From: Bacteroidales bacterium
GTDB lineage: Bacteria > Bacteroidota > Bacteroidia > Bacteroidales > FEN-979
Reading direction: 5' to 3'
NCBI GenBank assembly: GCA_028706295.1
Contig: JAQWBQ010000008.1
Coordinates: 34,215 to 98,214, forward strand
Length of the DNA: 64,000 bases
Every line of letters begins with the position of its first letter. Positions within the stretch are counted from its first letter, which is position 1. The position numbers and the translations under genes were made by a program. Of the stretch, positions 27,395-29,027 are shown one piece after another. The notes under the pieces were generated by a model. The model was not told the DNA's origin. It made no database searches and saw nothing but the letters and a program-made list of their open reading frames with translations.

Positions 27395-28159
27395 ATGAAA
27401 GAATCAACTTTCTATCTGCTCGTGTATCTTTGGATAGCCATTGCACTGGTTTCATTTCCTTTTATACTCAAAATTGCTGCCCCGTATGGAAGACATGCTT
27501 CAAAACGATGGGGTGGCATGATTGACAACCGGATCGGATGGATTATCATGGAGTTACCTGCTTTAATTGTGTTTGCAGGTTTTTATATTTTTGGAACAGG
27601 AGCGCATCCACCCGTTACCTGGGTCTTTTTCGGATTTTGGGTTTTTCATTATATAAACCGTACCCTCATTTTTCCTTTCAGATTACGGACTAAAGGAAAA
27701 AAAATGCCACTGGCAATAGTTCTCATGGCAATTTTCTTCAACCTCGTAAATGGCTCCATCAATGGATATTTTCTGGGAACAATTGCAACTGAAGCGAGAT
27801 ATCCCCTGTCATATTTTGGAGATCCCAGATTCATAGCCGGGGTAGTATTTTTTATTTCAGGGTTAGCAATTAACTGGAACTCCGATTATATTTTAATTCA
27901 TTTAAGAAAACTCGGGGAATCAGGCTATGTCATTCCTCAAAAAGGATTGTTCAAATACATCTCCTGCCCGAATCATTTCGGAGAGATTGTTGAATGGTCG
28001 GGATTTGCACTGATGACATGGTGTTCACCTGCACTAGCTTTTGCTATGTGGACCATGGTAAACTTACTACCCCGGGCATTGCACCATCACAAATGGTATC
28101 AGACTACCTTTCCGGAATATCCTCCAGAGAGAAAAGCGGTTATCCCATTTATCCTGTAA
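27395..28159 (+). CDS. Steroid 5-alpha-reductase family (SRD5A-like, 3-oxo-5-alpha-steroid 4-dehydrogenase) membrane protein
   Basis: YGRHAS..., ELPALIVF, HYINRTLIFPFRLR, DPRFIAGVVFFISGLAINWNSDYILIHLRKLGESGYVIPQKGLFKYISCPNHFGEIVEWSGFAL, HHKWYQTTFPEYPPERKAVIPFIL: close collinear match to mammalian SRD5A1 as I remember it. Confidence 0.88.
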   Translation: MKESTFYLLVYLWIAIALVSFPFILKIAAPYGRHASKRWGGMIDNRIGWIIMELPALIVFAGFYIFGTGAHPPVTWVFFGFWVFHYINRTLIFPFRLRTKGKKMPLAIVLMAIFFNLVNGSINGYFLGTIATEARYPLSYFGDPRFIAGVVFFISGLAINWNSDYILIHLRKLGESGYVIPQKGLFKYISCPNHFGEIVEWSGFALMTWCSPALAFAMWTMVNLLPRALHHHKWYQTTFPEYPPERKAVIPFIL

Positions 28160-28224
28160 TCCGGCGCTGTATAATTTTGTAATCCAGAACCGATTTTTGA
28201 TTTTTTACCAGGTTTTTGGATTGA

Positions 28225-28560
28225 ACCTCTTTCAGACCACTATATAACAACGATGGGAACCTCCTCTGGCCGAAGCTGTTCCCATCCCGCATCCAGTCGA
28301 CCGTAGTCTTCCGGGGCGTCCAAGCTACAGTTATTGTGGGTGATCTTCTCAGTCAGGGTCTCCCCTTTCTGTTCGTTCCGGCTTCCGGTTTGAAAAATCC
28401 TTTCGGATCCATCTCCCTTTCGTCCCCGCTGTGAACTCCCCCGTGTTGTCGGCACCTTTCGGAGCGTGACTTATCGGGCTTTGCCAGGAGTGCATGTCGC
28501 CTTTCGGTTCCTGCTTTCACCAGCGTGTTTTCCAGCGTCCCTTTTATCTCTCGCTTGAGT
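28225..28560 (-). ncRNA. Candidate large structured non-coding RNA, family not recognised (3' end uncertain)
   Basis: GC-rich island in AT-rich flanks; several short stem-loops capped by GAAA/GAGA tetraloops; 9-bp terminal hairpin (28252-28286); preceded by a minus-strand TATATTTG promoter; no credible ORF. Confidence 0.65.
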
Positions 28561-28563
28561 TTC

Positions 28564-28595
28564 CAAATATACTGCAGACCATACAGGTAAAGCAA
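28564..28595 (-). promoter_or_regulatory. Bacteroidota-type promoter for the candidate ncRNA
   Basis: On the minus strand: TTG (28593-28595), 21-nt spacer, TATATTTG (28564-28571). Confidence 0.55.
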
Positions 28596-28754
28596 GTTTC
28601 AATCTCAGCAGTTACCAACTCCCTTTCAACAAATGTTTTAAACAAAATGTTAATAAACAATTTTTTTAATATATTTATTTACAGAATATTAGAACAATCA
28701 AAAAGGATTGTGTTAATAAAATGTCAGTAAGTTGTTAGTAGGAAAAATTCTTAA

Positions 28755-29027
28755 TTATTCGATTGTTACTGTTAAACCGCGAACGGTCATCTCTTCGAAC
28801 AGGGGTTTAATTTCATCATAATCACCGCTTTTAACTGCACATTTTCCCGTGTAATGGGCTATGAGTGCGCACTGTTCAGCTTGTATAGGTTCATGATTGC
28901 AGATTTCGATCAGCGATTGAATTACGAAATCAAACGTATTCACATCATCATTATACAATACCAGATTTTTTGGAATAAGGTCCTTTGTAAAGGGATGTGA
29001 TACTGGTCGGTTTTCTTCTGCTGGCAT
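28755..29027 (-). CDS. clpS: ATP-dependent Clp protease adaptor ClpS
   Basis: PKNLVLYNDDVNTFDFVIQSLIEICNHEPIQAEQCALIAHYTGKCAVKSGDYDEIKPLFEEMTVRGLTVTIE. Confidence 0.93.
   Translation of the reverse strand: MPAEENRPVSHPFTKDLIPKNLVLYNDDVNTFDFVIQSLIEICNHEPIQAEQCALIAHYTGKCAVKSGDYDEIKPLFEEMTVRGLTVTIE

Follow-up and report, generated by a model that had tools for sequence, protein, structure and literature searches.

A 64,000-nucleotide stretch of DNA from a Bacteroidales bacterium (the window; contig JAQWBQ010000008.1 of assembly GCA_028706295.1) almost certainly encodes, as judged from sequence comparisons, a member of a previously undescribed class of structured RNA that extends across the Bacteroidia. 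Members of this RNA class demonstrably share a predicted Bacteroidota promoter of their own, a core of two helices (P1 and P2) enclosing an internal loop, a 3′ hairpin of the UNCG type, a middle region lying beyond P2 and an intrinsic-type terminator. The best explanation overall, held here with moderate confidence, is that of an independent, trans-acting RNA class that would act as a protein-binding regulatory RNA under the control of a site-specific activator. A previous sequence-only reading of the same DNA had already proposed a structured RNA with its own expression, possibly from a family not yet described, and this probable assignment stands in view of the lack of any Rfam match, the compensatory changes and the conservation of promoter and terminator. 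The reach of the RNA had been underestimated, since it is found in much of the order and in several other families of the class.

The RNA gene and its locus

The RNA gene is located on the minus strand of the window, between clpS (28755-29027; Pfam ClpS), which lies upstream on the same strand, and a convergent steroid-reductase-like gene (27395-28159; Pfam Steroid_dh). The sequence, strand and coordinates given in the sequence-only reading were correct, as was its description of a GC-rich island (52-59% GC) set in AT-rich flanks that drop to 18-37% GC. The region proposed at that time (28190-28600) does contain the RNA, but the predicted transcript is shorter, and comprises the following features:

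28245-28559, minus strand: RNA gene of about 315 nt, with a predicted +1 at about 28559 and a 3′ end at about 28245, both placed from promoter and terminator
28612-28656, minus strand: upstream site array, degenerate in the window copy, with TTATTAACA (28656-28648), TGTTTAAAA (28644-28636), TGTTGAAAG (28631-28623) and AGTTGGTAA (28620-28612) at 11-13 bp spacing
28593-28595, minus strand: promoter -33 element TTG, positionally conserved in homologues
28564-28571, minus strand: promoter -7 element TATATTTG, consensus TAnnTTTG
28553-28558, minus strand: P1 5′ strand UCAAGC, paired with 28325-28320; covariation
28540-28548, minus strand: internal-loop 5′ strand GAUAAAAGG, consensus of 69 RNAs (GATAA being an anchor of the alignment), invariant in the mafft alignment A1
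28539-28541, minus strand: P2 5′ strand GGG, paired with 28340-28338; covariation
28341-28538, minus strand: variable middle domain with GNRA-capped hairpins and an GGGGAGACCC hairpin, in the subgroup form given by the A1 fold
28338-28340, minus strand: P2 3′ strand CCC; covariation
28326-28335, minus strand: internal-loop 3′ strand AAUAACUGUA (AAUAACnGUA), consensus of 69 RNAs (AATAAC being an anchor), invariant in A1
28320-28325, minus strand: P1 3′ strand GCUUGG; covariation
28299-28308, minus strand: P3 hairpin GAC-UACG-GUC with a UNCG-type loop (helix 8), both partners having changed in 5 of 7 pairs
28252-28286, minus strand: terminator-type hairpin GAUGGGAAC...GUUCCCAUC (helix 9), 96.8% paired

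The minus-strand promoter advanced from the sequence, a TTG (28595-28593) separated by 21 nt from TATATTTG (28571-28564), is indeed present and kept in homologues. Its TAnnTTTG motif, which is the consensus of the sigma-A factor of Flavobacterium psychrophilum (PMC9723704), precedes the 5′ motif in the 69 RNAs compared below, which were selected with it. At the other end, the GAUGGGAAC/GUUCCCAUC hairpin already listed at 28286-28252 was recovered as a covarying helix. The U run of the window terminator is poor and interrupted (GUUGUUAUAU, region 28240-28251); most homologues show UGUUUU, and a relative 98% identical (L002) carries GUUGUUUUAU where the window has its interrupted run. Terminator read-through may be higher in the window strain.

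Folded as a single sequence, the window copy is modestly better than chance on the minus strand (z = -2.05, matched or beaten by 3 of 100 shuffles), against z = 0.14 for the plus strand, and this would be unconvincing by itself. The short open reading frames of the region had been regarded as non-coding, in agreement with what is found among homologues, where no reading frame is conserved, most relatives have broken frames and the anchor-to-anchor distance shifts modulo 3. A coding ORF was rejected on these grounds.

Covariation and the conserved core

A total of 69 distinct RNAs were aligned without gaps or structural fitting, with GATAA and AATAAC as sole anchors, and all column pairs were ranked by corrected mutual information in a run of 71 rows that included two spurious ones, removed afterwards. 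The columns of the 5′ and 3′ blocks with the strongest covariation in this structure-free alignment were those of P1 and P2, with 90-99% standard pairs. Over the 69 RNAs, P1 is paired in 98.0% and P2 in 96.1% of the cases, figures that fall to 6-43% in slid registers, and double-changed cells in both helices amount to 78 against 24.5 in shuffles, with none of 1000 shuffles as good. The subgroup of the window (alignment A1) shows 46 pairs in nine helices. Of their cells, 93.2% are paired, and double changes affect 94 cells where shuffles give 34.0 (none of 500 shuffles as good), in a test flattered by the derivation of the structure from the very alignment under test. Moreover, compensatory switches in P1 recur inside single genera, such as UCAAG/CUUGA together with UCAGG/CCUGA in g1, or CCAAG/CUUGG together with CCAGG/CCUGG in g75, so that shared ancestry alone does not explain the covariation.

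The features common to members are P1 (UCAAGC/GCUUGR), P2 (GGY/RCC), the loop GAG.GAUAAAA / AAUAACnGUA, a UACG-type hairpin and the terminator. From 5′ to 3′, the +1 is followed by the 5′ strand of P1 (UCAAGc or CCAAGu), GAG.GAUAAAA, the 5′ strand of P2 and the variable middle, after which come the 3′ strand of P2, cAnAAUAACnGUA, the 3′ strand of P1, a hairpin mostly capped by C(UACG)G and the terminator. The window RNA shows the complete set that defines the class, namely the TAnnTTTG promoter, P1 and P2 with the GAUAAA / AAUAAC loop, the UACG-type hairpin and the terminator.

Regarding the local helices listed in the sequence-only reading, the dense structure they suggested is supported by covariation among homologues, but several hairpins of the middle domain are peculiar to the subgroup of the window. 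Another listed helix, CUGUAG/CUACGG (28330-28301), is incompatible with both P1 and the conserved GAC-UACG-GUC hairpin and does not represent the conserved pairing. The reading had missed the long-range P1 (28558-28553 / 28325-28320) and P2 (28541-28539 / 28340-28338), which are the helices with the highest conservation.

The middle ranges from about 20 nt, with a 7-bp hairpin in 127-nt minimal RNAs, to about 500 nt elsewhere, and in other families it is swapped for other sequences or nearly absent. The two conserved blocks stand 26 nt apart in L108-L110, which are the minimal forms; otherwise the distance is 129 nt (once), 187-230, 291-303 or 370-526 nt. Because the minimal forms keep the core despite such a variation in the length of the middle, this domain looks dispensable in evolution and the core would be the functional unit; the clamped internal loop is therefore the conserved business end of the RNA class. 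The 127-nt RNAs fold unaided into P1, internal loop, P2 hairpin, P3 and terminator (z = -2.5 and -4.8).

Distribution and genomic context

A search for homologues had been suggested as a check by the sequence-only reading, and it was successful, with abundant compensatory changes among the sequences found. Matches by blastn occurred in 19 of 61 relatives, the window's own genome included. The nearest relative reaches 98% identity, and most full-length matches lie at 67-70%. GTDB species genomes scanned for the exact pattern gave 31 loci, nearly all of them labelled Bacteroidales, Bacteroidetes or Bacteroidota, among which there are four Maribellus strains and MAGs labelled Draconibacterium. 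Cultured carriers include Maribellus sediminis Y2-1-60, M. luteus XSD2 and Maribellus sp. YY47 and CM-23. Two covariance models, R1 (3′ core) and the broader R2, extended the survey to 31 of 43 genomes and all 8 genera of the window's family, and to 91/393 genomes and 51/207 genera of the order, counts that are probably a lower bound since detection rests on a 96-nt 3′ core. In the class sample, 40 of 345 genomes gave matches, and in the phylum sample the covariance model found none outside the class; counts outside the order are approximate, as the raw tallies for class and phylum contain a few spurious matches. Strong matches share the 5′ motif (CCAAGUGAGnGAUAAAAGG), mostly with TAnnTTTG ahead as seen by hand, whereas several weak ones at the class level (E > 1e-5, with rough model E-values) are spurious or undecided. 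On hand inspection L156 turned out to be a tRNA plus a terminator, and L228-L232 look spurious; none of these is counted as belonging to the new class. Altogether, the RNA class occurs in about 35 groups at family level within the order, plus several others in the class; among the well-assembled genomes sampled, those of two families of this order (f60 and f105) yielded no credible copy. Some genomes carry two copies, either in tandem, 0.5-1.5 kb apart, or on separate contigs. Tandem pairs were observed at L083 (7-97 and 1501-1591) and in G074, G108, G191 and G302.

All blastn copies but one show the order clpS, RNA and convergent reductase gene as far as contigs extend, the exception being G022 (L012), with neither gene nearby. 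The synteny expected from the window thus holds within its family and fails in others, where the neighbours are PhoH (in one family) or RelA/SpoT (in several). In four loci of genera g3 and g4 (L011, L015, L016 and L019), clpS and the reductase gene lie 1.1-1.6 kb apart, apparently with an additional gene next to the RNA. The same-strand position downstream of clpS, found in the window and most of its family, would suit a cis element, be it a clpS attenuator or long 3′ UTR or the leader of a neighbouring gene, but this is extremely unlikely: the RNA has its own conserved promoter after clpS, other neighbours appear in other families and in G022, the downstream gene is convergent, and no constant position before same-strand genes of one function, as typical for cis elements and riboswitches, was found. 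Since neighbours differ between families, the downstream gene is convergent here and a terminator ends the gene, the RNA gene is predicted to be trans-acting.

Neither of the covariance models found a copy in eight congeners. In five of these RNA-less congeners (G002, G004, G012, G016 and G018), where both genes are on one contig, clpS and the reductase gene are separated by 6-68 bp, compared to 440-600 bp in congeners carrying the RNA. Because the gap is closed in the former, the RNA, its promoter and the upstream array appear to come and go together, and such presence/absence among congeners points to an accessory gene and argues against an essential housekeeping role. Two apparently eroding copies, L226 (G032) and L112 (G025), keep P3 and the terminator with a degraded GAUAAA/AAUAAC core. 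A mobile or defence-associated RNA gene would account for the patchy distribution, the clean presence or absence at one site, the several contexts and the tandem copies; we regard it as very improbable, as phages and viral contigs gave no match, no recurrent defence or transposase partner was noticed among the recurrent neighbour clusters inspected, and the synteny in the window's family is vertical.

The upstream site array

Ahead of the promoter, between about -106 and -42, there are three to five sites resembling TGTTNATAA, spaced by 11-12 bp and in a register fixed to the promoter (68 RNA genes). The motif TTATNAACA, which is TGTTNATAA on the other strand, occurs in the 125-bp upstream stretch of 68 out of 74 RNA genes, at a density of 12.3 per kb versus 0.069 per kb in the flanks, or about 175-fold. 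The canonical DnaA-box pattern TTATNCACA reaches 0.66 versus 0.048 per kb, with six hits only, and exact TGTGGATAA or TTATCCACA sites are present upstream of some distant members (L116, L127). Direct repeats one helical turn apart just upstream of -33 fit an activator of the PhoB/OmpR type. The sites are therefore described here as candidates for either DnaA-box-like sites or direct repeats of the PhoB/OmpR type, and the array may belong to another regulator.

An AT-rich stretch with DnaA-like boxes brought up the idea that the locus is oriC, which was set aside given the existence of genomes with two copies. No origin-type switch in GC skew was detected at the RNA locus in the window, G336 or G746, in genomes where the skew is weak; the putative origin finds no support here, and this does not amount to disproof. 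The dnaA gene (L142; G000 C83:16583-16789) is on the contig of the RNA gene, about 46 kb off, and no cluster of DnaA boxes was found beside dnaA in the window's genus. In L144, from another family, dnaA is preceded by two TTATTAACA sites.

Search for known RNA families

The search against 4227 Rfam families with cmscan, another check proposed by the sequence-only reading, gave no match in the window at gathering thresholds, and nothing credible either at the locus up to E = 5 or in 42 homologue loci up to E = 1. The names nearest to threshold, tfoR (L065, E = 0.037) and miRNAs, correspond to chance matches of terminators or hairpins far below the cut-off. Earlier motifs of Bacteroidota with Rfam entries, such as 6S-Flavo, Bacteroidales-1, Bacteroides-1 and Flavo-1 (PMC2864571), were all covered, and no matching description was found in the open-access literature searched. 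By these Rfam and literature tests, the RNA class is new.

The earlier failure to recognise landmarks of known RNAs is consistent with these results. RNase P RNA (RF00010, 249.5 bits at G000 C32) and tmRNA (RF00023, 166.8 bits at G000 C17) lie on other contigs of the window's genome and have no match at the RNA locus, where neither tRNA-like ends nor a tag ORF were found. Models for 6S RNA (RF00013, RF01685, RF01693) matched neither the locus (E up to 5) nor the 42 homologue loci (E up to 1). If the RNA were a known housekeeping RNA in diverged form (RNase P, tmRNA, 6S or SRP), the size range would fit, and a closing stem with a bubble in the manner of 6S is imaginable. Nevertheless, RNase P RNA and tmRNA have their own loci elsewhere, none of the models, 6S and SRP included, matches any homologue, and some congeners are entirely devoid of the RNA, so that this origin has hardly any probability left.

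On the other hand, size, complexity, nearly invariant core bases and the many CG-nRA tetraloops (9 versus 5.6 in shuffles) recall catalytic or self-assembling "ornate" RNAs of the OLE, ROOL, GOLLD or raiA type, with the core being a ribozyme or an oligomerisation element. The covariance models of these classes gave no match at the locus or in the 42 homologue loci, and a minimal form of 127 nt is small for such RNAs, which makes this identity quite unlikely. A GGA sponge like CsrB is not favoured here: GGA motifs, which CsrB/RsmZ carry in many hairpin loops, are not clearly enriched (17 versus 13.5 in shuffles, 32/300 shuffles), and AGGA motifs number 3 against 3.6 expected.

Proposed function

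In the model favoured here, a DNA-binding activator, with a regulator of the PhoB/OmpR family or DnaA as first candidates, would recognise the helically phased TGTTNATAA repeats and switch the promoter on, so that the RNA would be made in response to a condition or to a cell-cycle state. The transcript would fold with its ends closed by P1, and its core would present one specific surface, the purine-rich GAG.GAUAAAA / AAUAACnGUA loop between P1 and P2. This clamped loop might be bound by a protein, or less likely by a small ligand, resulting in a regulatory or scaffold RNP, whereas the middle would be a lineage-specific extension adding size or further contacts. The chances of the protein-binding mechanism, taken on its own, are considered roughly even.

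Instead of contacting a protein, the conserved unpaired bases could engage in base pairing. In this line, the main rival is a base-pairing (antisense) sRNA, whose loop strands or middle domain would pair with mRNAs, as is the case for the majority of bacterial trans sRNAs that have a promoter and a terminator to themselves, and as proposed for the conserved flavobacterial sRNA Rfp18 (PMC9723704). Throughout the class, conservation falls on an internal loop held between two covarying helices and not on an exposed seed, and the middle, the likely place for exposed seeds, is not conserved between families; antisense action is thus rather unlikely, if still the foremost rival. A bolder version of the protein-binding reading, in which the RNA is the core of a Bacteroidia-specific regulatory RNP, a DnaA-type box array drives its promoter, DnaA or a factor of the same site links its synthesis with the replication cycle, and the clamped loop represents a new motif for protein or ligand recognition, seems a long shot.

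Few large structured RNA classes are found in bacteria, and unexpected biochemistry often lies behind them. In the present case, the natural 127-nt forms can serve directly as minimal constructs for probing, pull-down and structure determination, the promoter-phased array gives a handle for finding the regulator, and the presence or absence between congeners at a single site provides a clean natural genetic comparison. Absence from f60 and f105 would explain the lack of a library entry, if those are well-studied families.

Comparison with known systems

Sponge RNAs of the CsrB/RsmZ type have activator sites at a fixed distance upstream, variable length, sometimes several copies and a terminator. 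The new class, with its putative activator sites, resembles them in all these aspects, but repeated GGA hairpin loops are the conserved feature there and an internal loop is conserved here. In Y RNAs, the ends pair around a conserved internal loop and the distal part is expandable, a general plan shared by the new class, which differs in giving no Rfam match, in being much larger and in having its own intrinsic terminator hairpin. A closing stem, an internal bubble and an upper stem are also found in 6S RNA, including the 6S-Flavo and Bacteroidales-1 motifs of Bacteroidota (RF01685, RF01693; PMC2864571), whose covariance models give no match to the new class, with members from 127 to >600 nt that are missing from many congeners. 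Rfp18 is likewise a structured independent sRNA of Bacteroidota, but one widely conserved in the genus Flavobacterium (PMC9723704), the comparison with the new class being by description only. Finally, OLE, ROOL, GOLLD and raiA/ModT (PMC12286853, PMC11706538) are, like the RNA reported here, independently expressed, large, GNRA-rich and covarying, with a biochemical function mostly unsettled; those classes belong to other phyla and their models give no match, whereas the new class is built on a small two-helix core with a middle that can shrink to a hairpin.
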